NCBI GenBank assembly: GCA_011772205.1
Contig: WVZY01000029.1
Coordinates: 1 to 64,000 of the forward strand
DNA from: Candidatus Latescibacterota bacterium
Lineage (GTDB): Bacteria > Krumholzibacteriota > Krumholzibacteriia > WVZY01
DNA: 64,000 nt
Reading direction: 5' to 3'
Part shown: piece by piece, positions 9,498 through 38,212 of the stretch
How the letters are laid out: each line of letters begins with the position of its first letter
Position numbering within the stretch: the first letter of the stretch is position 1
The notes under the pieces: generated by a model
Told to the model about the DNA's origin: nothing
Databases searched by the model: none
What the model saw: the letters and a program-made list of their open reading frames with translations, nothing else
Made by a program: the position numbers and the translations under genes

Positions 9498-9575
9498 GTC
9501 CCCATCGTCTAGTCAGGCCTAGGACACCGCCCTTTCAAGGCGGCAACACGGGTTCAAATCCCGTTGGGGACGCCA
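9498..9575 (+). tRNA. tRNA-Glu (TTC)
   Basis: A complete cloverleaf. Acceptor GTCCCCA pairs with TGGGGAC, the discriminator is G and CCA is encoded. The anticodon stem CCGCC/GGCGG encloses CTTTCAA with anticodon TTC, and the T arm has the GGTTCAAATCC loop. Its 3' end (CGTTGGGGACGCCA) is the sequence repeated through the next 29 kb, so this gene is the likely founding attachment site of the array. Confidence 0.97.
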
Positions 9576-9589
9576 TACTTCACGATCAT

Positions 9590-9620
9590 GCCGTTTGGCA
9601 AGTACGTCAAACGGCTTTTT
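9590..9620 (+). terminator. Terminator after tRNA-Glu
   Basis: The eight-pair stem GCCGTTTG/CAAACGGC with a ten-base loop and a T5 tail starts 14 bases after the tRNA CCA end. Confidence 0.8.
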
Positions 9621-9784
9621 ATATGTGGGATATACACTTATACCGTTAGTAGTAAGGTTCGAACACAGCTCTTTTAGCAATCCTGCTTGGTCGTTGAGGG
9701 TCATTATTAAATAGTTATCAGATATACTCTTACAAAGTTCGATCAAAATCTCCCCCAAAGCCATGAAATCGCGGTTGGCTGACC

Positions 9785-10114
9785 TCAACTTAACCTCTTC
9801 CTCTGCACAGCCGCATGGTGTCCAAGGTATTCTCCCTGGGCAGTGTAGAACTCAAAGTCCATCACACAAAAGGAAACGAACTGATTCGAGTCATTCCGCA
9901 CACGGATCTCAGCAGCGCTGTATTTGTACTCCTGGCGGATGTTGAGGATGGTTACCTCAATATTGCTGCGCCCTTGCTTCTGCTGGCTCGAATCGGCGAT
10001 CGGCTTAATCTGCTGCATGCCAGCGGACTGTGTTTGTGAGGTCTGAGGAGTTGTCCTCTCGGTCGAGCAGGACGATACCAGCAACAGTACTGTAAAAATC
10101 GCTAGGTATCTCAT
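9785..10114 (-). CDS. Small lipoprotein
   Basis: A 109-residue protein with a lipoprotein signal (lipobox LVSSC near residue 15), a Gln/Ser/Thr-rich linker, and a beta-type domain (NIEVTILNIRQEYKYSAAEI, then FEFYTAQGEYLG). The pattern resembles FxLYD-like extracytoplasmic domains, although the end looks cut short (VQRKRLS stop). Its start lies at the stop of the upstream membrane protein gene, with AGGAG spaced correctly, so the two form an operon. It is the first cargo after tRNA-Glu. Substrate and role are unknown. Confidence 0.65.
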   Translation of the reverse strand: MRYLAIFTVLLLVSSCSTERTTPQTSQTQSAGMQQIKPIADSSQQKQGRSNIEVTILNIRQEYKYSAAEIRVRNDSNQFVSFCVMDFEFYTAQGEYLGHHAAVQRKRLS

Positions 10115-10431
10115 TATGGCTCCTTCAGAGCGTTGTTTACCAGACTACGCATATGAAAATAGGCAACCCAGGGTCCAATTGGGGTTGTGAACCAGGTTAA
10201 CGCACACCAAACGATCCAGCTCCTGTTCAGTCGTTTGGCGAGTCTTCCCAGACAGACGATAAACGCCCAGAACGCGAACAAGGCAACAATATATCCAAGC
10301 ATATACACTCCGCCGATTGCATCGGACAGATCGAAGTTTGAGAGTATAAACAGGACCGCTACCAAGCTCGCCATAACGATGAGGTGTACCGTGAGCCATT
10401 TCATTAGGCTCCGCAGTTCGTTGGAATTCAT
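10114..10431 (-). CDS. Small membrane protein, first gene of the lipoprotein operon
   Basis: About 105 residues with three predicted transmembrane segments (around LIVMASLVAVLFIL, VYMLGYIVALFAFWAFIV, and WIVWCALTWF). I chose ATG 10431 over the more upstream in-frame start because AAGGAGG lies seven bases before it. The family is not recognised. The N-terminal coding region begins only 20 bases from the right-hand cassette boundary core at 10454, so its promoter must lie in or beyond the repeat. Confidence 0.65.
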   Translation of the reverse strand: MNSNELRSLMKWLTVHLIVMASLVAVLFILSNFDLSDAIGGVYMLGYIVALFAFWAFIVCLGRLAKRLNRSWIVWCALTWFTTPIGPWVAYFHMRSLVNNALKEP

Positions 10432-10453
10432 GACGCCTCCTTGCTTGCGGGGA

Positions 10454-10575
10454 GGGGACGCCATTTCAATTTCCGGTCAAACCTGGTTAACTTAGTGGCG
10501 GGGCGCTCTTTTTGGGTTTTATGCCGCAAGAAATGCTTTGGCGAAGGCCTCGGCGGTTCTAATAGTACGAGGTCA
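10454..10575 (+). repeat. Boundary repeat, family A, ~120-bp unit
   Basis: It starts with the GGGGACGCCA core, then TTTCAATTTCCGGTCAAA and a unit ending GCGGTTCTAATAGTACGAG. It is nearly the same as the units at 14665-14795 and 32932-33062, but the closing core is degenerate (GTCAAACGCC). On the minus strand the last part encodes RTAEAFAKAFLAA followed by a stop. Confidence 0.8.
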
Positions 10576-10617
10576 AACGCCGCAGTCCTCCCCGGCGTGT
10601 CGCGCAACGCAAAAGAG

Positions 10618-10646
10618 AAAGGCCCGGACGAGATGCCCGGGCCTTT
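10618..10646 (-). terminator. Terminator of the fasciclin gene
   Basis: The near-perfect stem AAAGGCCCGG/CCCGGGCCTTT has an 8-base loop. On the minus strand it lies about 35 bases after the fasciclin stop. Confidence 0.8.
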
Positions 10647-10680
10647 TGGGTCTCGAGTTCGGATTGCCAAGTAATTAGAC

Positions 10681-11229
10681 CTAGTTCGAAGCCTCTTCTT
10701 GCTCGGGTGGGATCATCACCGCGTCGATGACGTGGATGATTCCGTTGGTAGCGACGATGTCAGTCTTGATGACTTTTACACCCGCGATCATGACACCTTC
10801 CTTCTTGACTTCGACACTGGCTTCCACTCCGTTGAGCATATCTGCGGCCTTGATTTTGGCCACGTCCTTTGCCATGACTTCACCTGTGACGACGTGGTAC
10901 AGGAGCACCCTGGTGAGCGCGTCCTTGTCCTTCAAAAGACCCTCGAGCGCGCCCTCGGGAAGAGCCGCAAATGCCTCGTCGGTGGGTGCGAAGACGGTGA
11001 ATGGGCCTTCATTCGTCAGTGTCTCGGCCAAGCCAGCGGCGTCGATCGCCGCGACTAACGTCTTAAAGCCAGCCTCTTGGGCTGTCTCATAAATGGAGTG
11101 CTTGTGGTCATGCTTGGCGTGCTTCGCACTGTCCTTGCCACATGAGCCGCAGTCAGCGTTGGCGATGGGCGCGAAAGCGATGGCGAGGGCGAAGATGGCT
11201 GAAGCCGCTGCCATGGTGGTCTTTCTCAT
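10681..11229 (-). CDS. Secreted fasciclin-domain protein
   Basis: A 182-residue protein: signal peptide ending IANA, a short His/Cys/Lys-rich mature start (CGSCGKDSAKHAKHDHKH) that could bind metal, then one fasciclin (FAS1) domain. FAS1 hallmarks are visible: FKTLVAAIDAAGL, GPFTVFAPTDEAF, LLYHVVTGEV and NGIIHVIDAVMIP. FAS1 proteins act in adhesion or matrix contacts; the role here is inferred only from the fold. AAGGAGG sits correctly before the ATG, with a promoter and terminator of its own, so it is a self-contained unit within its cassette. Confidence 0.92.
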   Translation of the reverse strand: MRKTTMAAASAIFALAIAFAPIANADCGSCGKDSAKHAKHDHKHSIYETAQEAGFKTLVAAIDAAGLAETLTNEGPFTVFAPTDEAFAALPEGALEGLLKDKDALTRVLLYHVVTGEVMAKDVAKIKAADMLNGVEASVEVKKEGVMIAGVKVIKTDIVATNGIIHVIDAVMIPPEQEEASN

Positions 11230-11297
11230 TATCGATTCCTCCTTGGGATTCTTACACTGCTGCTGTTTACGGGTAACCTGACCCGACTGTCCTCGGT

Positions 11298-11325
11298 AAG
11301 ATAAAGGGTGTTATAAAAATGTCAA
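11298..11325 (-). promoter_or_regulatory. Sigma-70 promoter of the fasciclin gene
   Basis: On the minus strand TTGACA (11325-11320) is followed after 16 bases by TATCTT (11303-11298), about 70 bases before the fasciclin start. It overlaps the first codons of the transposase fragment on the other strand. Confidence 0.6.
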
Positions 11326-11573
11326 GGACAAAAGGTGAACATTTTGTGAGCCCATGGGGCTCGCGAAGGCGCATGAGGGCGAGCCGGAAATTGAGAGTCC
11401 TCGCCCACGCCGAAGAGAATGGCAACGTCTCAAGAACCTGCAGATATTTCGGCGTTTCACGGGATACGTTTTACCGATGGAAACGAGACTACAAGCGGCT
11501 GGGGGATGAGGTAGAACATCGGAAGGAATCGAATTTCATTTGCCTTGAAAATTTGTCAGAAATCTCTTATTAG
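11319..11573 (+). pseudogene. IS481-type transposase, N-terminal HTH fragment
   Basis: 84 codons with a helix-turn-helix matching transposase N-termini: KLRVLAHAEENGNVSRTCRYFG then VSRDTFYRWKRDYKRLG, clearly like the RDTFYRLKKKF stretch of the transposase at the window start. After KRLGDEVEH the similarity stops and the frame ends; no rve core follows. It is a relic cut off next to a family A repeat, so cassette formation or recombination may have removed the rest. Confidence 0.7.
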
Positions 11574-11587
11574 ACCGGAAACTGTGG

Positions 11588-11653
11588 TTATGCTGCAAGA
11601 AGAGCCTCGGCGAACTCCTGCGCGGTTCGATTAACGTATATTTGGGGACGCCA
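11588..11653 (+). repeat. Boundary repeat, family A, short form
   Basis: A core-proximal half ending GCGGTTCGATTAACG then TTTGGGGACGCCA. The minus strand reads WRPQIYVNRTAQEFAEALLAA and a stop, the clearest form of the family A antisense peptide. Confidence 0.75.
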
Positions 11654-11770
11654 CTTTATTTGAATTCTCCTAAGCCAATGAAATAAATCAAATTACCGGC
11701 CCAATTCGATCGTCAATAGAATTCTGAGCTCGTATCGCCGCCGACAACCCGTTGCGATAGCACAAGTAGC

Positions 11771-11794
11771 GAGTTCAAATTCCGCTGGGTGTGC
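11771..11794 (+). repeat. tRNA T-arm-like fragment
   Basis: GAGTTCAAATTCCGCTGGGTGTGC resembles a tRNA T arm plus acceptor 3' strand but has no tRNA body. It lies about 120 bases right of the boundary core, as do similar pieces in other modules. The 264 bases 11654-11916 hold no gene. Confidence 0.4.
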
Positions 11795-11916
11795 TTGAAT
11801 ATATAAGTTGCGCGGTGGCGCATGATCTCACTCCGCATGTCTGATCCAGGGGTGAGCACGTGCCCGTTGTTTGGGCGCTAAACATCAGGTAAGATTCTGA
11901 AAGCCGGAATGGTCTT

Positions 11917-12468
11917 ATGTTCGAGTTGATCGTCTTCGTTGTGGTGTCGGCCGCTTTGGTCTACTTGTCCCGCAGGTCTCTGCGCGCGCCTCGTTCTCAT
12001 GGCTTCTATCGCTTCTTCGCCGCGGAATTTGTTCTGATACTAGTTCTTCTCAACTGGGATGATTGGTTTCAGGACCCGTTTGCTTCGCGTCAAGCAGCTT
12101 CATGGTTATTGTTAGCTGTTTCAATCGCGCTTGTGGTCCACGGTGCCTATCTGCTAAAAGTCGTCGGGAAGCCTGACAGTAGGCGAAGCGACGAAGTGCC
12201 TTTGGCCGGCATCGAGAAAACGACTTCACTAGTGTCCGTTGGCGCCTACAAATACATTCGCCATCCGATATATGGCTCGGGTTTCTATGGGACATGGGGA
12301 GTGTTCTTGAAGGATCCATCGTGGCCAGGCATGGCCTTGGCCCTGGCGGCAACCGTCTTTTGGGTGATAACAGCAAGGACTGAAGAGGCCGAATGTATTC
12401 AGTACTTTGGTGCCACATATCGGGTCTACATGAAGCGGACCAAGATGTTTGTGCCTTTCCTATTCTGA
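11917..12468 (+). CDS. ICMT/PEMT-like membrane methyltransferase family protein (array copy)
   Basis: A 183-residue protein with about four to five transmembrane segments and the C-terminal signature of isoprenylcysteine carboxyl methyltransferase-like proteins: YKYIRHPIYGSGFYGTWG, then EEAECIQYFGATYRVYMKRTKMF. The RHP and E-E residues in this block bind SAM in the family. The substrate is unknown; bacteria with such proteins lack prenylated CaaX proteins, so lipid or small-thiol methylation is more likely. A close paralog lies at 63173-63724 outside the array. Confidence 0.8.
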   Translation: MFELIVFVVVSAALVYLSRRSLRAPRSHGFYRFFAAEFVLILVLLNWDDWFQDPFASRQAASWLLLAVSIALVVHGAYLLKVVGKPDSRRSDEVPLAGIEKTTSLVSVGAYKYIRHPIYGSGFYGTWGVFLKDPSWPGMALALAATVFWVITARTEEAECIQYFGATYRVYMKRTKMFVPFLF

Positions 12469-12495
12469 CAGCGATCACGCCACCCCGGAGCGGTC
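12468..12495 (+). repeat. Partial family C repeat
   Basis: CTGACAGCGATCACGCCACC matches the left part of the family C units at 29763-29851 and 34215-34299. The rest is missing, so this is a relic between the ICMT-like gene and the next gene. Confidence 0.4.
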
Positions 12496-12586
12496 TCATA
12501 GTGCACTTCGAATTCGATAGGATACGTGTACACGCGAAGGGTACGCTCAACACCTGTCGGTATTGGCTTGGTGTGGAGGATTCTCT

Positions 12587-13525
12587 ATGTCGCCGCCGTT
12601 CACGACAAGCGTCGGCAAACCCATTCTAGTTTTCGGTGGGACTGGTCACTACGGGCGAAACATCGTCCGCAGTCTTCTGGAAAGCGGAGTGCGTGTTCGT
12701 GTTTTGAGCCGCAACGCGCCGCGCGCGCGATCGGTCTTGGGAAATGAGCCTGAAGTAATAGAAGGCGACATCACGTCGCGGCCGACGGTCATCTCTGCGC
12801 TCGACCAGACCAGGGCAATCATCATTGCTGTATCCGCTTTTACGTGGAAAACCATTCGCAGGCGTACAGAGATCGAGCGGGACTCCGTGCTCTGGATTCT
12901 CAAAGAGGCTGATCGTAGGGGCATCGTTCGGGTTGTCTGTCTCTCAGGCTACGACGTTCGCAAGGATTTTGCCGAGAAGCTCGGCGTGCTTGCGATGGCC
13001 AGACCAATGCTCGACGTCCAGGCCGCTCTCGCGGAATCGCGGCTGAACTGGACTGTGTTGGGTTGCCCGCCGTCTATGGAGATCTTCTTTGCGATGATCC
13101 GAGGCGCGAGGATGATCGTCCCCGGTGGGGGACCGCCGGCGCTACCCTCAATCTCGCCGGTCGACGTAGGGACGATAGCCGCCCAGGCCGTGCTGCGGGA
13201 TGATCTCGGCGGCCAGAGGATCCGGCTGCCCGGACCGGAAGCGCTCTCTTTTCCGGAAGCGGCCCGACGCATCTCAGCAGTCTGGGGCAGAGAGATTCAT
13301 TTTCATCGAATTCCAGTGACGCCACTGAAGATCGCCTCTGTGCTCACCCGCCCGTTTAACCCCTTCCTTGTGCACCTGGTGATGGCAATCAGGATGCTGA
13401 ACAACTTTCCGGGGGAATTTGCGGCAGAAGTCCCAAGAGATCACCAACTGCTGCGGGAGGCGTTCGACTTTACTCCTACATCTCTGGAGGTGGAAGCGCG
13501 CAGGCGAATGGGGGAGGTGCAGTAG
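12587..13525 (+). CDS. NAD(P)-binding NmrA/SDR-type protein
   Basis: A 312-residue atypical short-chain dehydrogenase. The Rossmann nucleotide motif is ILVFGGTGHYGRNIVRSL near the N-terminus, followed by VIEGDITSRPTVISAL, as in NmrA-like sugar-epimerase relatives. The Ser-Tyr-Lys triad is not obvious (LSGYDVRKDF carries a Tyr), so it may be a sensor or a redox enzyme with a weak active site. ATG 12587 is preferred because GGAGG precedes it by seven bases; the upstream frame has no such site. It shares a module with the ICMT-like gene and is probably co-transcribed. Confidence 0.75.
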   Translation: MSPPFTTSVGKPILVFGGTGHYGRNIVRSLLESGVRVRVLSRNAPRARSVLGNEPEVIEGDITSRPTVISALDQTRAIIIAVSAFTWKTIRRRTEIERDSVLWILKEADRRGIVRVVCLSGYDVRKDFAEKLGVLAMARPMLDVQAALAESRLNWTVLGCPPSMEIFFAMIRGARMIVPGGGPPALPSISPVDVGTIAAQAVLRDDLGGQRIRLPGPEALSFPEAARRISAVWGREIHFHRIPVTPLKIASVLTRPFNPFLVHLVMAIRMLNNFPGEFAAEVPRDHQLLREAFDFTPTSLEVEARRRMGEVQ

Positions 13526-13590
13526 GGGCAGACCGCGGGCGGAACGTATTTCGATAATTGGTGCCGGGCTTGGACGCGGTCAATTCTTCT

Positions 13591-13661
13591 TGGGTGTTAT
13601 GCGCAAGAAACGTCTCGGTGAAGGCTTCTGCGGTTCTAACGTCGTTACATTGGGGACGCCA
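13591..13661 (+). repeat. Boundary repeat, family A
   Basis: TGGGTGTTATGCGCAAGAAA to GCGGTTCTAACGTCG, then ACATTGGGGACGCCA. Minus-strand translation is WRPQCNDVRTAEAFTETFLA without the stop, owing to a small deletion at GCGCAA. Confidence 0.75.
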
Positions 13662-13778
13662 TTTCAATCATGGCTTTGTAAACTTACACCCTAACAGGAT
13701 TTACGGGTCAAAGTGACAATTGGGACGAAGGCGCCGTTTCACTCGTCATGTGCAACTCGTTGGGATAATATCAAAAAT

Positions 13779-13801
13779 GAGTTCAAATCCCGTCCGGGGC
13801 A
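13779..13801 (+). repeat. tRNA T-arm-like fragment
   Basis: GAGTTCAAATCCCGTCCGGGG resembles a T arm and acceptor end. It lies 118 bases right of the preceding boundary core, with no tRNA body upstream. Confidence 0.4.
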
Positions 13802-13867
13802 TTTTTTGTGTTTGGCAAATATTGTTGCGATGTATGCAAGTCGGCTGAAACAACAAGGAGGAATAAA

Positions 13868-14500
13868 ATGGTTACGAGCAAAAAACATACTTACGTCATA
13901 CTGATGTTCTTGGGAACCGGACTCTTATACACCGCCTTCGGCGAAAACGCGTTTGCACATTGTGACACGCTTGACGGTCCAGTGGTGCGAACGGCAAGGA
14001 TCGCGCTTGAAAAGCGTGATGTAACGCCATTGCTCAAGTGGGTCCAGGCCGATGATGAAGAGCAGATTCGAGATGCTTTTCAGAAGACTCTTGCTGTTCG
14101 GGCCCAGGGTCCCGAGGCCAAAGAACTAGCCGATATGTATTTTTTTGAAACGCTGGTGCGTATTCATCGGGCGGGTGAAGGGGCTCCCTACACCGGTTTG
14201 AAGTCAGGTGAAGCTGTGGACGCTGCTGTTACCCTGGCCGACGAATCGCTGCAAAGTGGATCAGTGGATGATCTGGTGGGTGTTCTGACGAGCGCCATGG
14301 CCAAAGGTATTCGTGAGCGTTTTCAGCAGGCTCTGGAAGCACAAAAGCATGCCGATGAATCTGTGGCGGCCGGGCGTGAATTTGTGAACACTTACGTGAG
14401 TTTCACACATTATGTCGAAGGCGTGCACACCACTGTCGAGGGAAGTGCTGCTCAGTATGGTGAGGGGGCGATAGAAGGACACAGCAACCACACACATTGA
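13868..14500 (+). CDS. DUF6448 family exported protein
   Basis: A 210-residue protein. A signal peptide ending FAHC leads into the HCDTLDGPVV start typical of DUF6448. Family blocks follow: LLKWVQADDEEQIRDAF, ADMYFFETLVRIHRAGEG, APYTGLKSG, and FVNTYVSFTHYVEGVH. ATG 13868 is chosen because AAGGAGGAATAAA precedes it; the upstream frame runs through repeat sequence. The function of the family is not known to me; the conserved His and Cys at the mature N-terminus and a His-rich C-terminus (EGHSNHTH) suggest metal binding. It is the only gene of its module. Confidence 0.8.
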   Translation: MVTSKKHTYVILMFLGTGLLYTAFGENAFAHCDTLDGPVVRTARIALEKRDVTPLLKWVQADDEEQIRDAFQKTLAVRAQGPEAKELADMYFFETLVRIHRAGEGAPYTGLKSGEAVDAAVTLADESLQSGSVDDLVGVLTSAMAKGIRERFQQALEAQKHADESVAAGREFVNTYVSFTHYVEGVHTTVEGSAAQYGEGAIEGHSNHTH

Positions 14501-14609
14501 ATTGTCAGCTAGCAAGTTCCAACCATTTCGACTTCCAGTGAACCCTCGTCAACTTGACGGCGGCAGGCACGGACTCGTAGCGATCGGAAATTGGCTCCTG
14601 GTCAGATGG

Positions 14610-14674
14610 TATGCTGCCATAAGCGCAACGGCAAACTCACGGGCGGTTCGATTAACGTCACGTTGGGGACGCCA
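14610..14674 (+). repeat. Boundary repeat, family A, divergent
   Basis: It ends GCGGTTCGATTAACGTCACG then TTGGGGACGCCA. The minus strand reads WRPQRDVNRTAREFAVALMAA with no stop. Its T-arm-proximal part is closest to the real tRNA-Glu (WRPQRDLN in the tRNA antisense). Confidence 0.7.
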
Positions 14675-14795
14675 TTTCAATTTCCGGTCAAACCTGGTTA
14701 ACTTAGCGGCGAGGCGCTCTTTTTGGGTTTTATGCCGCAAGAAATGCTTCGGCGAAGGCATCGGCGGTTCTAACGTCGTTACATTGGGGACGGCA
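14665..14795 (+). repeat. Boundary repeat, family A, ~120-bp gene-less unit
   Basis: A unit bounded by GGGGACGCCA on the left and GGGGACGGCA on the right, nearly identical to 10454-10575 and 32932-33062. It contains no gene. The minus strand of its right half reads RTADAFAEAFLAA and a stop. Directly right of it CGCCTTTTTAACCTATTGG begins the next module. Confidence 0.8.
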
Positions 14796-14886
14796 CGCCT
14801 TTTTAACCTATTGGTAATAAATAATTTATGCCATCCAAAATCTGTGCGGCAAGCCCTCTCCTAGCCGATGTGGGGCACGATTTCGC

Positions 14887-14942
14887 TTGCCGTTTGATCG
14901 ACGGCTCGGTATGATATATGCGTCTATGCGCAACTACGCAGG
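14887..14942 (+). promoter_or_regulatory. Promoter and possible ArsR operator
   Basis: TTGCCG (14887-14892) is followed after 17 bases by TATGAT (14910-14915). Just downstream a TGCGT...ACGCA inverted pair lies between the promoter and the GTG start at 14952, where an autoregulating ArsR-type repressor would bind. Confidence 0.45.
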
Positions 14943-14951
14943 TGACTGATC

Positions 14952-15341
14952 GTGGAAGAATACACGCAAGTTTTCAAAACGCTAAGTGATCCAACCCGTT
15001 TGAGGATCCTTCGCTTGTTACTCGATGCAGGCAAGGAACTGTGCGTTTGTGAGCTGGTCGATAGCCTCGAGGAGCCTCAGTACAACGTCTCGAAGCACGT
15101 CACTGCGATGCGATCAGCCGGGCTCCTGAAGAGCCGCAAAGAAGGCCGCTGGGTGTATTACTCTCCGCAGAGTGCCGACGGGGAGTTTCTGAAACTGCTC
15201 TCTCGGGCGGTGGCGGCAATTCCTGAACGGCATGTCAAGCATGACCGCGCAGAGCTCAGGAAACGACTGAAGCTGCGCGAAGGCGGGAAATGTCTTACAG
15301 GTGTGCGGAAGGAACATCTTCTGGGAAAGGTATCGAGTTGA
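14952..15341 (+). CDS. ArsR-family transcriptional regulator
   Basis: A 129-residue winged-helix repressor. FKTLSDPTRLRILRLLL and the recognition helix QYNVSKHVTAMRSAGLL are typical ArsR/SmtB. ELCVCEL contains the CxC metal(loid)-binding motif of arsenic-sensing members; another Cys lies in GGKCLTG. It starts with GTG. Its stop overlaps the TTG start of the MtrA-like gene, so it heads a four-gene operon (ArsR, MtrA-like, OB-fold protein, membrane protein), which it probably represses until a thiophilic ion is bound. Confidence 0.88.
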   Translation: MEEYTQVFKTLSDPTRLRILRLLLDAGKELCVCELVDSLEEPQYNVSKHVTAMRSAGLLKSRKEGRWVYYSPQSADGEFLKLLSRAVAAIPERHVKHDRAELRKRLKLREGGKCLTGVRKEHLLGKVSS

Positions 15342-16504
15342 AGAAGGCGTCCGCAAACGGTGCGATTCAGAACATCATCGACGAAATGCAGGCCGCGACG
15401 GCCGCAGTGAAATGCCACAAGTGTGGCTGTTTCCATGGTGCGCTGAGTGAACTCACAGAAGCATTACCCAGCATTCCTTCTGAGGCACGCGAAATTATTC
15501 AACCTGTCATCGAGACGGGTAAGAAGCACAGGATCCCGGAAGAATATGATTGCATCGGCTGTCCCGTTTGTTGGCCAGCGAACGCCCTCAACTTTGCGGC
15601 GGAGGCGTTTGCACATATCGAGTTTGGGGGTGACAGCTGTCCGACAGAGATGCCAGCGCGAGAACATAGTTGGCCACCGTTACCGGGAGACTTCACGGTT
15701 CTCGACCGTGCAGGTCACGTGGCGGTCTGCGCGCTCACATCCAAAGGGTTGGTTGAAGGTGTTGTTGAAGCGCGTCCGAGCGGCGTGGCGATTGTCGGCA
15801 CGCTGTACACGGAAAATCTGGGCATCGAGAGAATCATCACCAATGTGCTCTCCAATCCCAACATCACGACGCTCCTTATTTGCGGTGCGGACTCGGAGCA
15901 ACGGATCGGACACTTACCCGGGCAGACCTTCCTCAGCCTCTTCGAGCACGGTATCGATGAGCGAGGGCGTATCATCGATGCCAAAGGACGGCGCCCGCTC
16001 ATCAAAAACATCACACACGATACGATTGAGACGTTTCGGAAAGAGGTTCGGATTCTGGACCGAATCGGCGAAGAAGACGTTAGCGGGCTTGTGGAAGCCC
16101 TCGCGGGCATATCAGCGGATCAGGAGCCGCGCCGTGCCGAAAGACGGACCCATGACGTCCCCCGGGAGATCCACGCTCAGCCGGTTGAACGCCTCGTGCT
16201 TGACCCCAAAGGGTACTTCGTTGTTTTCCCCGACCGCGAACAGCAATCTATTCTCATCGAGCATTACCTCAACGATGGCACTTTGGCGCATGTCTTCACG
16301 GGAGAGCGTGCCGACGATCTCTACGCCACGGTGATCGCCCATGAGCTTGTCTCGCGCCTTGACCACGCTGCGTACCTCGGGAAAGAGCTGGTACGGACTG
16401 AACAGGCGCTCAGAACGGGCGAGCCTTACATCCAAGACCGAGCGCCCGAGCCGTCCTGCTGCGCGTCAGCCGGTTGCACGGGGAATCACAAAAGGGAGTC
16501 CTGA
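15338..16504 (+). CDS. MtrA-like (tetrahydromethanopterin S-methyltransferase subunit A family) protein with DUF4346 tail
   Basis: A 388-residue cytosolic protein. A Cys-rich N-terminus (KCHKCGCFHG at about 25, YDCIGCPVCW at about 75) suggests an Fe-S or zinc site. The middle resembles MtrA of methanogens (WPPLPGDFTVL, TENLGIERIITNVLSNPNI, GQTFLSLFEHGIDERGRI). The C-terminus matches DUF4346 (LDPKGYFVVFPDREQQSILI, then VSRLDHAAYLGKEL). In methanogens MtrA carries the corrinoid. Start TTG 15338 overlaps the ArsR stop by four bases and follows GGGAAAGG. Control by an ArsR-type protein suggests methyl transfer or corrinoid chemistry on a metal(loid), but this is inference. Confidence 0.72.
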   Translation: MKKASANGAIQNIIDEMQAATAAVKCHKCGCFHGALSELTEALPSIPSEAREIIQPVIETGKKHRIPEEYDCIGCPVCWPANALNFAAEAFAHIEFGGDSCPTEMPAREHSWPPLPGDFTVLDRAGHVAVCALTSKGLVEGVVEARPSGVAIVGTLYTENLGIERIITNVLSNPNITTLLICGADSEQRIGHLPGQTFLSLFEHGIDERGRIIDAKGRRPLIKNITHDTIETFRKEVRILDRIGEEDVSGLVEALAGISADQEPRRAERRTHDVPREIHAQPVERLVLDPKGYFVVFPDREQQSILIEHYLNDGTLAHVFTGERADDLYATVIAHELVSRLDHAAYLGKELVRTEQALRTGEPYIQDRAPEPSCCASAGCTGNHKRES

Positions 16505-16507
16505 TCA

Positions 16508-16903
16508 ATGACATTCGTAAGAACGGCGATCATAGTCAGTGTGGCGTTACTAGTTATTTCTGTGGTCTCACCCGTTTCAAGTTATGGTCAGAGCGATTCC
16601 ACGGTGACAGACACTCTTAACGTCGACAAGCTAGCGAAAGACCCCAAGGGATTCGCCGACCGTGAGATAACGGTTACAGGAGTGGTCGGTGCGGTTGTTC
16701 CGAAGCAAAAGCTGTTCACGATTATCGATCAGTCTGAGTATGCGGAATGCAAAGTCGTAACGTGTGCCCGGTACGAAATCCCGATTGACTTCACCGGAAA
16801 GTTGCCGGACCCGGAGCAGGTCGTCATGGTGACGGGAAAGCTGGTCCAGCCACAGCCGGGGCGCTTCCTCTTTAAGGCAAAGCGCGTGGAGATCATCAAA
16901 TGA
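16508..16903 (+). CDS. Exported OB-fold-like protein
   Basis: A 131-residue protein with a signal peptide (VALLVISVVSPVSSYG) and a small beta domain: FADREITVTGVVGAV, LFTIIDQSEYAECKV, QVVMVTGKLVQPQPG, RFLFKAKRVEII. The pattern fits the tRNA_anti-like OB fold found in periplasmic proteins. Two cysteines (AECKVVTCARY) flank a turn and might bind metal or form a disulfide. It follows the MtrA-like gene by three bases and overlaps the next gene by ATGA, so it is in the ArsR operon. Confidence 0.65.
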   Translation: MTFVRTAIIVSVALLVISVVSPVSSYGQSDSTVTDTLNVDKLAKDPKGFADREITVTGVVGAVVPKQKLFTIIDQSEYAECKVVTCARYEIPIDFTGKLPDPEQVVMVTGKLVQPQPGRFLFKAKRVEIIK

Positions 16904-17418
16904 GGCGTTCCACGTTCCTCATCTGCCTTTTTGTCTTTGCCGTCGTCTTCGCGGCGCACTTTGAGTATCACGCCTGGCAGGAGGCCCGGGTGGCGTCCCA
17001 GTGGGTAGCGCTGGATTCTGTGGAAAGACCTTCGGCGTGGGCACGTTACGCAGAACGACAAGATTTCTACCTTGGTTACTCCTATGCGCTTGCCGCGGCC
17101 TTCACAGTTTTTGCCGTGCTGTTCAGCCTTCAGCAGCGTCGTCGCGAGGTGGGAGGTATCCTGGGCGGCGTCACTCTTATCGGCGGGCTCTACGCCGCCG
17201 GGTGCTTCCTCATCGGTTGCTGCGGATCACCTATGCTCGTCGTTTATCTGTCGCTATTCGGATCTTCATTTCTGGGCGTCATCAAACCGATCGTCGCGGG
17301 GATCACGACCGTTTCGATCGCCCTCAGCAGTTTCTATATCATTCGCAGATCCAGACGCGCATGTTGTCCGCCGGTAGTTGATGGCGAACGGGTCTCGCCT
17401 GCTCGCAATGCGAGGTAG
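16900..17418 (+). CDS. Four-TM membrane protein with Cys-rich helix
   Basis: A 172-residue integral membrane protein with four predicted helices: an N-terminal FLICLFVFAVVFAAHF, then segments around YALAAAFTVFAVLF, LIGGLYAAGCFLIGCCGSPML and VAGITTVSIALSSFYI. The third helix carries a GC...GCCG cluster, a possible metal or thiol site in the membrane, and RRACCPP ends the protein. It overlaps the OB-fold gene by four bases, so both are translated together. The family is not recognised; by context it may move or sense the ion detected by the ArsR protein. Confidence 0.6.
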   Translation: MRRSTFLICLFVFAVVFAAHFEYHAWQEARVASQWVALDSVERPSAWARYAERQDFYLGYSYALAAAFTVFAVLFSLQQRRREVGGILGGVTLIGGLYAAGCFLIGCCGSPMLVVYLSLFGSSFLGVIKPIVAGITTVSIALSSFYIIRRSRRACCPPVVDGERVSPARNAR

Positions 17419-17442
17419 CTCTCGTCCGGCGGGTGTCGTGTA

Positions 17443-17539
17443 TCAGGCGACAAGCCGCTCAAGCTGCTGTATCCGCTCGACTTGATACTCATCGAGGCAA
17501 AATAGTGGAGTTAGATACTTTGTCCCGTTGGGGACGCCA
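17443..17539 (+). repeat. Boundary repeat, family B
   Basis: A 97-base unit ending CTTTGTCCCGTTGGGGACGCCA. The minus strand reads MKWRPQRDKV then, after a one-base frame change, FCLDEYQVERIQQLERLVA and TGA. Other copies lie at 23821, 29667 and 32846. Confidence 0.8.
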
Positions 17540-17695
17540 TTTCATTCCATCGCGCATAATCCATTTGATTCGATCAGCTTGCCGGTTCGAACACATGATC
17601 GTTTGGGCCTCAAAATTCTTATCGCGCCCCGCAATCCCTTGCGATATCATGGGTAGCGGTTTTCCAATGCCATTGGGTAGGCCCGGAGTTCGCGC

Positions 17696-17889: not shown

Positions 17890-17901
17890 GGAAGTGATGA
17901 A

Positions 17902-29938: not shown

Positions 29939-29951
29939 ATGAAAATTGCCA

Positions 29952-29994
29952 TTGACGTGCGCTCCTATATGATACATGATTCCTAAATAGGAAT
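29952..29994 (+). promoter_or_regulatory. fur/katG promoter with palindromic operator
   Basis: TTGACG (29952-29957), 17 bases, CATGAT (29975-29980). The palindrome ATTCCTAAATAGGAAT (29979-29994; 7-2-7) overlaps the -10, where a Fur/PerR-type regulator would block its own transcription. AAGGAG precedes the GTG start. Confidence 0.7.
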
Positions 29995-30015
29995 ATATTC
30001 TTAGCAAGGAGAACT

Positions 30016-32719
<2,704 letters not shown>

Positions 32720-32757
32720 TTCCTGTGGATGGCTGTTGCCCCAGGAGCGGAGCTCTT

Positions 32758-32792
32758 AAAGGGCCAGGCTAATCAGCCTGGCCCTTCTTTTC
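32758..32792 (+). terminator. Strong terminator after katG
   Basis: The 12-pair stem AAGGGCCAGGCT/AGCCTGGCCCTT with loop AATC, followed by CTTTTCT. Confidence 0.92.
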
Positions 32793-32845
32793 TCGCCGGG
32801 CGTCTCGGCTTCGCGGTGGCGCCTTGCGCATTTAGCCCACTCATC

Positions 32846-32941
32846 TCAAGCCACTAGCCGCTCAAGCTGTTTTATTCTCTGAGCTTGGCACTCGTCTATC
32901 AAACACAAAGAAGTTGGCACTTTGTCCCGTTGGGGACGCCA
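32846..32941 (+). repeat. Boundary repeat, family B
   Basis: It ends CTTTGTCCCGTTGGGGACGCCA. The minus strand, from an ATG in the adjoining family A unit (MFDRKLKWRPQRDKV), reads on through ECQAQRIKQLERLVA to TGA, a complete 44-codon ORF. Confidence 0.85.
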
Positions 32942-33062
32942 TTTCAATTTCCGGTCAAACATGGTTAACTTATCGGCGAGGCGCTCTTTTTGGGCTTCAT
33001 GCCGCAAAAAATGCCTCGGCGAAGGCCTTTGCGGTTCTAACGTCGCTACATTGGGGACGCCA
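32932..33062 (+). repeat. Boundary repeat, family A, gene-less ~120-bp unit
   Basis: A unit with exact GGGGACGCCA at both ends and no gene. It is nearly identical to 10454-10575 and 14665-14795. The minus strand reads RTAKAFAEAFFAA and TGA. Right of it GACTTTTTTAACTCATTG opens the next module. Confidence 0.85.
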
Positions 33063-33137
33063 CGACTTTTTTAACTCATTGATATACAATGTGATACACG
33101 GCCAGAAGGATACAAATTCGTCTGGCTGAAAGGGTTG

Positions 33138-34115
33138 CTATCGGTCCTGATCAGGGAGGCGAATGATGCCTAGCTGCTGCAGCGGGACTAGCATGTTCTT
33201 ACTCCACCACTTTTCCACCATCCTCCCGTCAGCAAAACGATGAATGATCATTAAGGACTCCATTGTCACCCCGCCCATGTCAACGGTACAACGCTCTACG
33301 ACCTTGTCCCCTTCGGCAATCAGATCATCAACAGTGACGGCGAGAGGACCGTCTAGCTCTGACTCGACCCATTGCTTGTAACTTTCGTAATCGGCAACCG
33401 CGGGCCAGATGGGATCGTGATTGACGAATTCGGGGGCTATCAGCTCGAGTATTGCGTCCACGTTCCCTTGCTTCCATCCCTCCACCTCCTCGTGGAGGAC
33501 GAGGTTCCTATTGGTCGCTGGATCACCAGGGTCGCCGGTTACTTCTGACGACGGGCTCCATTGGTAATCCTGAGTTTTCCGGTTCAGCGCGGGCAGGGGT
33601 GCAGCGGGCATCGGAAGTATAACTCCGAGCTGTTGCATTAGACCGAGCATGTCATAGCTCCACCAGGCTTCATCTATCTCGCCATGGACCAAACGATGGA
33701 TATTCATCCCCGTCACAGTCACATGCACCGATGTAGGCGGGACGCCCCAAAAATTGCCTTTGTGTGTGCCGGTAAGTGTCCAGCGGCTCGCAACTTTGTC
33801 CCCTTCAGTGATCATGTCGTGAATTTCAACATGGAAGTCCGGGAACGCAGTGCGACTTTCAACGACCCATACTTTGTAGCTTTCGATATCGGTGACCTTG
33901 GGGCGGTTGGGATCGTGGTTGACGAAGTTGGTGGCGAAGATCTCCTCTGCGATGGTCAAATTTCCCGTATTCCACACTTGAAACCAGCGCTTGACGAGGT
34001 TCTCGTTCTTTGTAGTGGTGTCAATTTTCTTAGGACAAGCACTTATCGCCAGAAAGGACAAGCCCATGAATAATAGAAACAAATTTTTCTTAGCGGAATG
34101 CTTTCCGTTGTGCAT
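33138..34115 (-). CDS. Lipoprotein with two SnoaL/ester cyclase-like domains
   Basis: About 325 residues. Lipobox FLAISAC is followed by two SnoaL-like (NTF2 fold) repeats: first VKRWFQVWNTGNLTIAEEIF to GNFWGVPPTSVHVTVTGM, second HEEVEGWKQGNVDAILELIA to MESLMIIHRFADGRMVEKWW. Each has the ANFVNHDP/PEFVNHDP-type block of polyketide cyclase relatives. A dimer-like NTF2 pair in one chain anchored to a membrane suggests small-molecule binding. Start taken as ATG 34115; earlier in-frame Mets lie in non-hydrophobic leader sequence. Single gene of its module. Confidence 0.8.
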   Translation of the reverse strand: MHNGKHSAKKNLFLLFMGLSFLAISACPKKIDTTTKNENLVKRWFQVWNTGNLTIAEEIFATNFVNHDPNRPKVTDIESYKVWVVESRTAFPDFHVEIHDMITEGDKVASRWTLTGTHKGNFWGVPPTSVHVTVTGMNIHRLVHGEIDEAWWSYDMLGLMQQLGVILPMPAAPLPALNRKTQDYQWSPSSEVTGDPGDPATNRNLVLHEEVEGWKQGNVDAILELIAPEFVNHDPIWPAVADYESYKQWVESELDGPLAVTVDDLIAEGDKVVERCTVDMGGVTMESLMIIHRFADGRMVEKWWSKNMLVPLQQLGIIRLPDQDR

Positions 34116-34214
34116 TGCTCGCATATCTGGATCCACCGGTACTCCCAATTATTTTGTCCGCATTGCTATTCCTACACATAGCGGAACTCCTCTCAATAAG
34201 TCAATGACAAGGTT

Positions 34215-34299
34215 TTCCCGACATCGATTACGCCACTTCGAGCTGTAACTCCTTTGCTGACAACAAAAAAGTTCCAAAATGATTCCCTGCGGTACGCCA
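34215..34299 (+). repeat. Boundary repeat, family C
   Basis: It ends CCCTGCGGTACGCCA. The minus strand reads WRTAGNHFGTFLLSAKELQL then EVA and TAA; the copy at 29763-29851 reads WRTVGDYLRTFLLSAKKLQL then QVA and TGA. Confidence 0.75.
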
Positions 34300-34452
34300 T
34301 TTCTTTCGCCCGTTGGAAGCTAAGCGGTTTACTTGACATACCAAATGATTAGACCATCAGACCGTGAGATTTCAGTCGTCTACCGCCGATTCATTAGGAT
34401 ACTATTAGCAAAAGAGTTGGAATCCAGCTCACAGACCACCCGGAGTGCGAAC

Positions 34453-36714
34453 TTGATCGGTAAAATAGTTTCTCATTACAGAATCCTCGCCAGGATCGGC
34501 CATGGCGGGATGGGCGTTGTGTACAAGGCCCATGACGAGAAACTCGGCCGGATGGTGGCGCTCAAATTCCTGCCGCACCACCTGAGCCAGACGGACGAGC
34601 AGCGCAAGAGATTCGTGCGTGAGGCGCGGGCGGCATCTGCCCTCGACCATCCCAGCATCTGCACGATCTTTGACATCGACGAAACCGACGATGGACAGAC
34701 GTTCATCGCCATGGGTTTGTGCGAAGGTGAGCCGCTCGAAGAGGTGATCTCGCGTGGTGCCGTGCCCATCGACAGGGCTGTGGAGATAGCGAAGCAAGTG
34801 GCACAGGGCCTGGCCAGCGCGCACGCTAAGGGCATCGTGCACCGCGATATCAAGCCGGCGAACATTATTGTGACCTGCGACGGCGGTGTGAAGATCGTCG
34901 ATTTCGGGCTCGCAAAGCTAATGGGACAAACCGCGATCACGCGGGAGGGGACAACGGTGGGAACGGTAGCCTACATGTCGCCCGAGCAGGTGCAAGGCGG
35001 CGACGTCGACCACCGCACCGATATCTGGGCCTTGGGCGCGGTGCTCTATGAGATGATTGTCGGCGTACGTCCGTTCGAGGCCGACCACGATGCGGCTGAG
35101 CTATATCGGATCCTGAACGAAGAGCCGGCACCGATTGTAACACTTCGCCAGGAAATCCCGGGGGCAATCGCTGCGGTCATCCACCGCGCACTAGCGAAAA
35201 ACATTGGGGATCGCTTTGATTCAATGGAAGAATTGGTATCCGCACTCGGTTCAGCTTGCTCGGACGTCGGAGCAACGCCGACTGCAGATCGATCCTTAAC
35301 TCTTACCCGCGCTCGCACCGCACTCGAGCGTTACGATTGGTCCGAGGCCTTCGCGGCGTTTGCCGACGCTGACTCGCAAGTCGAGCTGGCACCGGAGGAC
35401 CTGGAACGATGGGCTATTGCGGCCGAGTGGATGAGCCGCTTCGACGCTTGCGTCGGCGCCCACGAGCGTGCGCACGCTCAGTACGTCAAAGCTGGTCGGC
35501 CCGCCGATGCGGCCCGTGCAGCCGTCGAGCTAGCTAATATCAACTACATCTCTGGCGCTCGTTCGGTGTGCAACGGTTGGCTCAAGCGAGCCGAGAAGCT
35601 ACTCGAGGGAGTGCCCGAAGCGGTAGCTGAAGGCTATCTCGCCCGCCTGAAGGCAAAGATCGCCATTGAGGCGGACCATGACCTCGACACCGCATTGGAA
35701 CACACGATCAAAGCAATAGAAGTCGCGGAGAGATACCGTGATGCAGACCTGGGAGCGCTCGCCACACAGGATCAGGGGCGTGTGCTCGTGCTGAAAAACC
35801 GCGTGAAGGAAGGGATGGAACTTCTTGACGAAACCATGGCTACGGCGATCTCCGGGGAGTTGTCTCCGTTTGTAGTGGGTACTACGTTTTGCAATATGAT
35901 ATCGATGTGCGAGACGATTGCGGACTACCGGCGTGCGGGGGAATGGAGCGATCAAGCGACTCGGTGGTGCCGGCCCTATAGCGAGTCCCCGTTTCCGGGA
36001 ATCTGCAGCGTGCACCGTGCCGAGATCATGAGTGTGCGCGGCGATTGGGCCGCAGCGGAGGGCGAGGCCGAACGAGCGTCCAGGATATGCGAGGGACGAG
36101 TTACGTCCGTCGCGGCCGAGGCTTACTACTTGATGGGCGAGATCAAACTCCGCCGGGGCGAGTACCAGGGAGCAGAGACATCGTTCCAAGAAGCCCATCA
36201 ACGGGGCCGACACCCGATTCCGGGACTGGCGCTGCTACGGGCGGCACAGGGACGGCACGACGCGGCGAAATCGCTTATCGACCGCGCCTTGTCCACCAAA
36301 AGCCTAGACCTCGACCGAATCCGGCTCCTTCCTGCTGGTGTGGAGATCGCGCTCGCGGCAGGCGATGTCGTGACCGCTCGCGAACGCGCGGAGGAGTTCG
36401 AGTCGCTTGCGGCGGGATTCGGATCGACGGTATTCTCCGGGCACGCTAGTCATGCGACCGGTGCCGTTGCAATTGCCGAGGGCAAGGTGGAAGAGGCGCT
36501 GTCGTCACTTAGTACGGCTCGCCGAAACTGGCAGGCGGCGGATATGCCCTACGAAGAAGCGCGCACGCGCCTACTCCTGGCTACTGCGCATTGGAAAGTA
36601 GGTGAAGCCGACCTCGCCGAGCTCGAAGCACGCGCGGCCCGCGCTGCCTTCGAACGCCTAGGTGCCGCCAAAGACCTGGAGCGTGCCGATTCTCTTATCG
36701 CAGCGAACTCCTGA
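34453..36714 (+). CDS. Ser/Thr protein kinase with TPR-rich C-terminus
   Basis: About 753 residues. Kinase domain: glycine loop IGHGGMGVVYKA, catalytic Lys in VALKFL, HRDIKPANI catalytic loop, DFGLAKL, and APE-like SPEQVQGG. The rest (about residues 290-753) is a long run of TPR-like helix pairs (ALERYDWSEAFAAF, AEGYLARLKAKIAIEADHD, GEIKLRRGEYQGAETSF), as in bacterial Stk proteins that scaffold partners. No TM helix is evident. I prefer TTG 34453 (MIGKIVSHYRIL, GGAG seven bases before) because family members start there; the frame is open further up. Target unknown. Confidence 0.87.
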   Translation: MIGKIVSHYRILARIGHGGMGVVYKAHDEKLGRMVALKFLPHHLSQTDEQRKRFVREARAASALDHPSICTIFDIDETDDGQTFIAMGLCEGEPLEEVISRGAVPIDRAVEIAKQVAQGLASAHAKGIVHRDIKPANIIVTCDGGVKIVDFGLAKLMGQTAITREGTTVGTVAYMSPEQVQGGDVDHRTDIWALGAVLYEMIVGVRPFEADHDAAELYRILNEEPAPIVTLRQEIPGAIAAVIHRALAKNIGDRFDSMEELVSALGSACSDVGATPTADRSLTLTRARTALERYDWSEAFAAFADADSQVELAPEDLERWAIAAEWMSRFDACVGAHERAHAQYVKAGRPADAARAAVELANINYISGARSVCNGWLKRAEKLLEGVPEAVAEGYLARLKAKIAIEADHDLDTALEHTIKAIEVAERYRDADLGALATQDQGRVLVLKNRVKEGMELLDETMATAISGELSPFVVGTTFCNMISMCETIADYRRAGEWSDQATRWCRPYSESPFPGICSVHRAEIMSVRGDWAAAEGEAERASRICEGRVTSVAAEAYYLMGEIKLRRGEYQGAETSFQEAHQRGRHPIPGLALLRAAQGRHDAAKSLIDRALSTKSLDLDRIRLLPAGVEIALAAGDVVTARERAEEFESLAAGFGSTVFSGHASHATGAVAIAEGKVEEALSSLSTARRNWQAADMPYEEARTRLLLATAHWKVGEADLAELEARAARAAFERLGAAKDLERADSLIAANS

Positions 36715-37066
36715 CGCCGATTTGCTCGTGATGTGTATGAGTAATAAGCAAGCATCCTAAAGATTCCGAACCTCTGATTAGGGTCTCGGAGTAGCTTCGA
36801 ATGCCTCGGCCTGCGGGAAGACCCAACTGAGAATGCATACAGGTATGAACGGACCCTTTTGGGGATCGCCACGCGTTGCCAACTTGGGTCTTATACCGTT
36901 AAAAATGCCCGCGCGAAGGCTTCAGCGGTTCCAACGTCGCTACATCGGGGACGCCACTCTACTTTTGATTTCGCATCTGCATATCGCCACATCGTCTACG
37001 AGTTGGAACCAAAAGGCGAATAATCCCCACTTTCTCGTAAAGTGCTTTATGTCAAAAGGAATACTG
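36715..37066. other. Spacer holding a family A boundary
   Basis: 36861-36956 is bounded by GGGGATCGCCA and GGGGACGCCA with the family A body between them, about 25 bases shorter than the 120-bp units. The minus strand reads WRPRCSDVGTAEAFARAFLT and a stop soon after. Nothing else recognisable is present. Confidence 0.7.
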
Positions 37067-38059
37067 ATGAAAGCGATTGTATATGAAAGATACGGCCCAC
37101 CCGATGTTCTTCAGCTCAAAGAAGTAGAAAAACCTGTCCCCAAAGATAATGAAGTATTGGTTAAAATTCATGCGGCATCCATAAATTATATGGATTGGGG
37201 CTTTCTTCGAGGTGAGCCGCTGTTAGTCCGCCTCTGGTCCGGGCTTTTTGAGCCCAAAAATAGGATACTTGGAGCTGACATAGCAGGACAGATTGAAGCG
37301 GCTGGTGAAAATGTAAAGGAGTTTCAGACTGGTGATGAGGTATTCGGAGATATATCGGGTTGTGGACACGGCGGTTTTGCCGAATATGCGGCCGTTCCTG
37401 ATAATCTCCTGGTATTGAAATCCGCGGGTATTTCATTCGAAGAAGCAGCGGCTGTACCGGTAGCAGCAATCACCGCTTTGCAGGGAATTCGCAAAGGACA
37501 GATACAACCAGGGCAAAAGGTATTGATTAATGGAGCATCCGGTGGCGTTGGAACATACGCAGTCCAGATTGCCAAATCGTTCGGAACTGAAGTGACTGCT
37601 GTGTGCAGCACAACGAAATTGGATATGGCGCGATCGATTGGTGCAGACTTTTGTATTGACTACACGAAGGAGGATTTCACCCAAAGTGGGCAGTGTTATG
37701 ATCTTATTGTTGCTGCTAATGGGTATCATTCGATTTCAGATTATAAGCGAGCATTAACACCTGAGGGAACTCTCGTTGTCACCGGAGGTTCCATGGCTCA
37801 AGTTTTCCAGTCTATGTTTCTAGGACCATTGATTTCATCGATCGGGAGCAAAAAAGTAATGAACATGGGAGTGGCCAAACCAAATAAAGAGGATTTGACC
37901 TTCTTAAAGGAGCTTCTCGAATCAGGTAAAGTGAAACCTATTTTAGATAGGTGTTACACTTTAAATGAGGTACCTGATGCTCTCCGCTATTTTGGAGAAG
38001 GACACGCCCGAGGAAAAGTCGTCATAACTGTGCCGTCGCGGCGTCGTACGTTTTCATGA
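37067..38059 (+). CDS. NADPH:quinone oxidoreductase-like MDR protein
   Basis: 330 residues of the medium-chain dehydrogenase/reductase superfamily, quinone oxidoreductase branch: MKAIVYERYGPPDVLQLKEV start, NEVLVKIHAASINYMDW, and nucleotide loop NGASGGVGTYAVQIAKSFG. Zinc ligands of alcohol dehydrogenases are absent. ATG 37067 follows AAAAGGA. The family usually ends GKVVITV; here PSRRRTFS is added, which looks like readthrough into foreign sequence at a recombination joint. Codons are more AT-rich than in neighbours, suggesting recent acquisition. It reduces quinones or enones; the substrate is unknown. Confidence 0.88.
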   Translation: MKAIVYERYGPPDVLQLKEVEKPVPKDNEVLVKIHAASINYMDWGFLRGEPLLVRLWSGLFEPKNRILGADIAGQIEAAGENVKEFQTGDEVFGDISGCGHGGFAEYAAVPDNLLVLKSAGISFEEAAAVPVAAITALQGIRKGQIQPGQKVLINGASGGVGTYAVQIAKSFGTEVTAVCSTTKLDMARSIGADFCIDYTKEDFTQSGQCYDLIVAANGYHSISDYKRALTPEGTLVVTGGSMAQVFQSMFLGPLISSIGSKKVMNMGVAKPNKEDLTFLKELLESGKVKPILDRCYTLNEVPDALRYFGEGHARGKVVITVPSRRRTFS

Positions 38060-38193
38060 GCAAGGGGCGCGAAGTCGATTTCTTTGACAAGGCGAAGATC
38101 ACCGACGGCGAAGGCGACCTGGAATGGATACGAAAGGTGCACGCCACCCTTGTCTCCATCAAGGGAGACGCCCTCACGCAGAGGGTCGATTAA
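38056..38193 (+). pseudogene. 45-codon ORF, likely C-terminal relic of another gene
   Basis: ATG overlaps the oxidoreductase stop (ATGA). It encodes MSKGREVDFFDKAKITDGEG through LEWIRKVHATLVSIKGDALT to RVD. It looks coding and stays open upstream (AASYVF), so it is more likely the 3' end of a lost gene than a new small protein. The family is unknown. Confidence 0.35.
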
Positions 38194-38212
38194 CGTTACC
38201 TTGGGGGCGTCA
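38150..38212 (+). repeat. Last, weak boundary repeat of the array
   Basis: AGGGTCGATTAACGTTACC then TTGGGGGCGTCAA resembles the short family A form (GCGGTTCGATTAACG, TTGGGGACGCCA). CCTTCTGACCGATTGCTATA follows. I place the array end here. Confidence 0.45.

Follow-up and report, generated by a model that had tools for sequence, protein, structure and literature searches.

What stacks about sixteen small gene units in tandem behind a single tRNA gene, each of them ending in a copy of that tRNA's last bases, and have these units moved independently of one another? We analyzed positions 1–64,000 of contig C75 (89,217 nt in all; this 64,000-nt stretch is hereafter the window), which belongs to the 4.13-Mb, 96.5%-complete assembly G000, and searched 38 genomes, namely G000 and its relatives, each species being represented by a single, metagenome-derived assembly.

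Core repeats and gene units behind tRNA-Glu

The 3' end of tRNA-Glu, GGGGACGCCA, occurs in 12 exact copies within 27 kb, on the + strand only (starting at 9566, 10454, 11644, 13652, 14665, 17530, 19823, 23907, 29753, 32932, 33053 and 36947), and when one mismatch was allowed the window held 20 cores, a number that shuffled sequences never matched (mean 4.8, maximum 13). The whole G000 genome contains 19 copies of this core, seven of them outside the window, of which six look like chance and one, on a 6-kb contig (C37), has the array's 65-bp flank. With the six chance copies taken as the background rate, one strand of 27 kb should hold 0.02 cores, and the probability of at least 11 is ~5e-27. 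Counts, shuffles and genome background thus agree with an earlier note on this DNA, which had reported the exact tRNA-Glu terminus in twelve + strand copies, and a random scatter of the core over the genome is excluded, 12 of the 19 copies being in the array. The figure of about six variants given in the same note was slightly generous, because the candidates at 10576 and 36862 are doubtful; four are clear, namely GGGGACGGCA at 14786, the degenerate GGGGGCGTCA at 38203, and CGGTACGCCA at both 29842 and 34290. No credible gene in the array is interrupted by a core. Since its last ten bases are the core, the tRNA-Glu gene is the putative attachment site (attB) of the array.

The units behind it measure 0.1–6 kb, with a cargo of one to several genes each (Table 1). 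Their contents had been outlined correctly before, except that the supposed ArsR operon consists of ArsR, an MtrA/DUF4346 protein and two unknowns, and that the unit at 33–34 kb, previously assigned to a SnoaL lipoprotein, is here re-described as SnoaL-like. In the former, the gene behind the ArsR-type regulator encodes an MtrA/DUF4346 fusion (pterin-binding), an unusual partner for a bacterial cassette (15290–16504). Two non-coding intervals of 121 bp hold both ends but carry no cargo, and a third is a diverged copy: the mini-unit at 14675–14795 is 89% identical to 32924–33084, and the one at 10464–10575 is 96% identical to 14665–14773 over 109 bp. In addition, 29766–29851 and 34214–34299 constitute an 86-bp repeat (84% identical), each copy closing with the CGGTACGCCA core, which appears to mark a second family of boundary sites within the array.

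Table 1. Coordinates of the tRNA gene, the cassettes and the example ends in the window
Feature	Position	Strand	Details
tRNA-Glu(TTC)	9498..9575	+	ARAGORN; Rfam RF00005; last ten bases are the core; putative attB
C-terminal relic, large serine recombinase	9531..9803	-	open through the core into the antisense tRNA (..YPTYKKPFDVLAKRHDREV followed by WRPQRDLNPCCRLERAVS*)
Cassette 1: recombinase relic and two small minus-strand ORFs	9576..10463	+	core 10454-10463
Diverged 121-bp mini-unit: left end L3 and truncated type A right end	10464..10575	+	10454-10575 with the preceding core
Fasciclin cassette (PF02469)	10576..11653	+	type A right end 11589-11653; core 11644-11653
Type A right end, example	11589..11653	-	encodes WRPQIYVNRTAQEFAEALLAA* through the core
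PEMT/ICMT-like methyltransferase and NAD(P)-binding protein cassette	11654..13661	+	core 13652-13661
DUF6448 cassette (PF20046)	13662..14674	+	core 14665-14674
121-bp non-coding mini-unit, two ends, cargo-free	14675..14795	+	variant core 14786-14795
ArsR, MtrA/DUF4346 and two ORFs cassette	14796..17539	+	type B right end 17443-17539
Cassette with three ORFs without assigned function	17540..19832	+	core 19823-19832
PadR, ABC ATPase and FtsX permease cassette	19833..23916	+	core 23907-23916
Histidine kinase, IS3-type transposase, DUF4396 and unknowns cassette	23917..29762	+	core 29753-29762
Type B right end, example	29667..29762	-	encodes WRPQRDKVTTFLLFLDEYQVETIRRFERAVA*
Short end, second att-like family	29763..29851	+	terminates in CGGTACGCCA
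Fur and KatG cassette	29852..32941	+	core 32932-32941
121-bp mini-unit	32942..33062	+	core 33053-33062
SnoaL-like protein cassette, gene on minus strand	33063..34299	+	ends in CGGTACGCCA
Ser/Thr kinase-TPR cassette	34300..36956	+	core 36947-36956
Zinc-type dehydrogenase cassette	36957..38212	+	degenerate core 38203-38212 (GGGGGCGTCA)
Probable last cassette: PLP-dependent enzyme, cysteine-synthase type (PF00291)	38213..39240	+	without clear right end

Cassettes shared with a related genome

Searching the 38 genomes for the core with its flanks revealed an array, besides that of G000, only in G002 (Candidatus Krumholzibacteriia bacterium 13_May_SF_Bin18), a family relative whose assembly is fragmented and 86% complete. 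Its 13 array contigs, about 143 kb in total, contain 30 exact 12-base cores in same-direction runs as well as further degenerate sites, about 40 sites in all, and two of these contigs carry full tRNA-Glu genes.

The ArsR/MtrA cassette has two homologues in G002, 87% and 84% identical to it and set among unrelated neighbours. Across its three contexts (the window and the two G002 positions), identity is mostly 0.80–0.98 between the cores and mostly 0.22–0.5 outside, the similarity stopping at the cores. The DUF6448 cassette is 83% identical to a unit on G002 contig C238 and starts at the core in both genomes. Module-precise breakpoints between G000 and G002 were thus found at the cores, for the DUF6448 cassette at its start, and G002 carries single modules in new contexts rather than the same genes in the same order, in support of the mobile cassette system at the tRNA-Glu terminus that the earlier note had proposed. 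The array is a genuine gene-collecting site, since the same packages occur elsewhere in a related bacterium. Moreover, G000 and G002 are only about 65–66% identical over most of the host xerD region, compared with 84–87% for the ArsR/MtrA cassettes, which suggests that cassettes moved after the two genera had separated.

Two further cassettes have counterparts in G002: a gene related to that of the zinc dehydrogenase cassette lies behind a similar left end on contig C311, and the PLP-enzyme gene is 85% identical to a gene on array contig C391. Within the ArsR/MtrA cassette, 15672–16472 is mostly 94–100% identical to one of the G002 copies and identity is lower elsewhere, a mosaic that suggests recent exchange.

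The order dnaE then tRNA-Glu was seen in G000, G001, G002, G004 and G006; the locus is old. An efflux adaptor gene follows the tRNA in G001 and G006, which are array-free over the visible 1.5–1.7 kb downstream, and in G004 the tRNA-Glu end abuts an assembly gap.

Right-end reading frames and recombinases

Upstream of the cores, 65–100 bp are conserved in two main families that the earlier note did not include, type A (subtypes A' and C; ..GCGGTTCGATTAACGTGTATTTGGGGACGCCA) and type B (..GAGTTGTCACTTTGTCCCGTTGGGGACGCCA), and these right-end families recur at 13 sites in G000 and at about 40 in G002. Downstream of the cores lie the left-end families L1, L2 and L3, of which L1 often has a tRNA T-arm-like sequence at about +125; the strict T-arm motif is present at 10 of 57 sites, compared to 0.005 in shuffles. 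Pairing between left-end and right-end types was not significant, although the left ends had been typed automatically by an over-strict rule. A candidate inverted repeat linking the arms of type A and L1 scored 6.48 vs 5.65 (sd 0.32), a weak signal that stayed within the shuffle maximum.

On the minus strand, the sequence across the core reads TGG CGT CCC CAA, that is WRPQ, and the right ends encode conserved peptides of the form WRPQ...ALLAA* or WRPQ...LERLVA* (WRPQIHVNRTAREFAEALLAA*, WRPQRELIRTASDVIEALMAA* or WRPQRDKVTTLLLFLDEYQVERIQQLERLVA*). In this frame 54% of the single-base codon differences are synonymous, compared to 25–26% expected; the remaining minus frames gave 12–24%, and the plus-strand mirror frame 44–50%, as its register predicts. 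The position of the stop is kept, with TAA, TAG and TGA all used there. The right-end peptides are thus under codon-level constraint, and, given the synonymous excess and the conserved stop position, the core most likely belongs to the 3' end of a gene, the final 17–27 codons of which would have stayed behind at each right end.

The earlier note had inferred that the recombinase is encoded elsewhere, a point that finds no support here, because the best candidate is a large serine recombinase with a C-terminal relic inside the array, directly behind the tRNA. This C-terminal relic is 38% identical over 91 aa (E=3.9e-16) to a recombinase of G012, where a minus-strand ORF encodes a large serine recombinase's coiled-coil and C-terminal portion, crosses the core and continues into tRNA-Glu (..YRKPFDVLAEFARCPE followed by WRPQRDLNPCCQIENLES*); the C-terminal part in G012 is longer than the window relic and is broken by an assembly gap. 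Another serine recombinase adjoins tRNA-Glu in G008, so that both recombinase neighbours of tRNA-Glu identified in relatives are serine recombinases. Full-length relatives in the phylum are 500–510 aa long and harbor Resolvase, Recombinase and Zn-ribbon domains, and full-length serine recombinases in G024 and G008 end by reading into tRNA-Asn. Among fifty related recombinases on viral contigs, some terminate in antisense tRNA-Gln or tmRNA and others in native tails (..LLKLVA*, ..LLKVA*, ..FAA*), two kinds of tail that are consistent with an integrase gene that contains attP and exchanges its tail upon integration.

Neither G000 nor G002 yielded an intact recombinase ending in WRPQ or specific for Glu, and the search of the rest of the G000 genome likewise returned no intact Glu-specific enzyme. 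Two PF07508 recombinases of G000 (contigs C2 and C16) were considered as the source and rejected, as neither ends at the core, and so were the tyrosine recombinases of G000 and its family relatives, none of which ends in the WRPQ frame. Searched as a profile, the right-end tails matched no recombinase beyond the shared WRPQ (best E 0.13), and we infer the link between these tails and serine recombinases from position and logic, not from direct similarity. Only the first left end is recognisable as recombinase-coding. In the G000 and G002 arrays, neither a tyrosine recombinase nor a relic of one was found beside any core, and PF00589 had no match on the window contig, where the sole tyrosine-type trace is a 40-aa integron-type relic at 28929. 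This relic (28929–29045, + strand) matches the C-terminal end of an integron-type integrase (52%, E=0.002) and contains an internal stop; integron-type integrases occur in G002 (C392, L078) and G005 (L076). Related serine recombinases are encoded on the small G000 contigs C2 (L169; 525 aa) and C16 (L170). C16 also holds a tRNA-Asn, and the 240 bp adjoining the 3' end of this tRNA recur on C2 and on G002 contig C274, possibly representing another tRNA island.

Metagenomes can be searched for such arrays with the signature GGTTC-N15-GGGGACGCCA. When 2.9 million viral contigs were scanned, this signature had a single hit, attributable to chance, and a type B scan had none; signature matches in Microthrixaceae and IMG/VR look like chance as well. 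Repeated right-end-like sites (..GCGGTTCCAACTCGCAACCGTTGGGGACGCCA) that look real are present in Thermoanaerobaculia MAGs (L144 in G038; L146 and L153 in G039), and similar units may therefore exist in Acidobacteriota. In a Rhodospirillaceae MAG (G041 C67, L147, 1362–8727), a 7.3-kb integrase-less unit that also looks real extends from tRNA-Glu(CTC) to a right-end-like core, WRPQGEKVRTACSKRSFSGA*, with TonB-receptor-like and histidine-kinase-like ORFs as cargo. In G029 (C35, L024) and G028 (L039), extra tandem copies of TTGGGGACGCCA lie no more than about 100 bp from tRNA-Glu, those of G029 in a frame repeating WRPQRNHGTHMCE.

Probable accretion at the tRNA end, rival explanations and known systems

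Our preferred reading, to which we give a probability of about 0.7, is that the array is a tandem accretion of mostly integrase-less cassettes made by tRNA-targeting serine integrases, with attP within the 3' end of their own gene. The array would have grown by repeated site-specific insertion at the tRNA-Glu 3' end, the left and right ends of each cassette being the halves of an attachment site that the ten-base core joins when the cassette is circular. Each integration would restore the tRNA end and displace the older cassettes outward, which would produce same-direction repeats. The builders were probably phage-type serine integrases, most likely large serine recombinases whose own gene contains attP near its end. 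Upon integration, the right end would keep the native C-terminal tail and the gene would read into the antisense tRNA. The cassettes would subsequently have lost the recombinase gene and retained both end sequences, so that their movement would need an enzyme in trans. The repeats, the conserved ends, the coding constraint on the right ends, the recombinase relic, the module-precise sharing between genera and the unoccupied loci of relatives are observed, whereas serine recombination of all cassettes, their mobilisation in trans and any present activity are inferred. A bolder version, which we hold to be rather improbable, would make the array an equivalent of a chromosomal integron that is based on serine recombinases: a tRNA would carry a permanent store of cassettes, visiting phage-type serine integrases would move them in trans, and every stored right end would also provide the in-frame C-terminal tail for the integrase coming in. 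If that is true, the right-end peptides would stay intact through selection on integrase function.

Of the rival explanations, the strongest, though still unlikely, is a fossil array, in which one phage-type integration after another left remnants that decayed where they stood and cassettes never moved as units. Decayed cores and ends (38203, 10576 and a frameshift at 17530), an IS element inside one unit and the failure to find an intact integrase all speak for decay, but the two genera carry one and the same cassette at different places in their arrays, twice in the case of G002, with ends precise to the core; it is closer between them than host orthologues are, and the right-end frames are still open and constrained. 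Somewhat less likely again is that tyrosine integrases placed the cassettes, as in tycheposons and most tRNA islands, and that the serine relic is one later guest. Most known tRNA islands do rely on tyrosine integrases (PMC4383910), G000 has four non-Xer tyrosine recombinases, and type B right ends have 17 nt in common with the tRNA. However, the cores of both arrays lack tyrosine recombinases and their relics as neighbours, no such enzyme ends in WRPQ, and the tRNA-Glu neighbours in G012 and G008 are serine recombinases. Type A ends, moreover, have only about 12 nt in common with the tRNA, which is short for a tyrosine integrase.

Cassettes could also be moved by homologous recombination, with the repeated ends as partners, in place of a site-specific recombinase, the ends being 65–100 bp long and the ArsR cassette being mosaic (mostly 94–100% identical to one copy over 0.8 kb). 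We nevertheless regard it as improbable, as the ends of that same cassette differ between copies while the breakpoints stay at the ten-base core, and as the position of the array at the tRNA end and the rebuilding of the tRNA would be left unexplained. An integron, finally, is hardly credible: the small cassettes are arrayed in one orientation, an integron-integrase-like relic lies at 28929–29045 and G002 has an integron-type integrase, yet the boundaries are the tRNA end and not a GTTRRRY core, the array head is without an integrase gene, the right ends are coding-constrained, and many cassettes are multi-gene with genes on both strands.

From an uncultured phylum, the array shows that one tRNA end can gather many small, separately inherited adaptive modules, with cassettes common to two genera at core precision. 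The coding right ends also bear on a question raised by the serine recombinase DsiB, namely whether a neighbouring island supplies the C-terminus of an attP-containing integrase, and the arrays offer dozens of natural tail sequences for testing this. The DsiB-associated ssrA islands of Dehalococcoides are tandem, lie within 100 kb downstream of the RNA gene and are bounded by 3'-end repeats, and 15 of 31 are without an integration module (PMC3146451); their target is the tmRNA, their repeat is 20 bp long, and half of them keep a six-gene integration module. According to a suggestion made in that study, full function of the integrase may require either the circular form or a position downstream of an island that provides the 3' fragment (PMC3146451). 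Here, too, direct repeats of an RNA gene's 3' end bound tandem units, but the target is tRNA-Glu rather than ssrA, the repeat is 10–12 bp rather than 20 bp, the units are 0.1–6 kb and almost none keeps a recombinase. The six-gene module is absent among the annotated cassette genes, and of a DsiB-type recombinase gene overlapping the RNA gene there is only the C-terminal relic in the window and the longer, gap-interrupted part in G012. The displaced 3' tails are conserved and constrained in our arrays, whereas a tail supplied by a neighbouring island was only suggested for Dehalococcoides (PMC3146451).

Additive islands, at tRNA-Lys in Ca. Methylopumilus (PMC10872708) and in Ca. Actinomarinales (PMC7771536), resemble the present array in that recurring last bases of a tRNA delimit serially inserted cassettes; in the descriptions of those islands compared here, coding right ends and a serine recombinase do not feature. 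Like tycheposons, the array consists of cargo units anchored at a tRNA border, but tycheposons are defined with tyrosine recombinases, and none is found at the cores here. As in CIMEs and accretion islands, att-flanked tandem units stand without integrase or conjugation/transfer genes; known CIME cases, however, are mostly pairs beside an ICE or IME, whereas here about sixteen units (G000) and about forty sites (G002) are present and no intact mobile partner was seen. With chromosomal integrons the array shares a long, same-orientation store of small exchangeable cassettes, but it differs in its core, GGGGACGCCA, in its multi-gene cassettes and in the absence of an integron integrase with attI at its head. 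Arrays of this kind thus have close precedents in the Dehalococcoides ssrA islands and the additive tRNA islands, from which the target, the scale, the near-absence of integrases and the constrained tails set this one apart.
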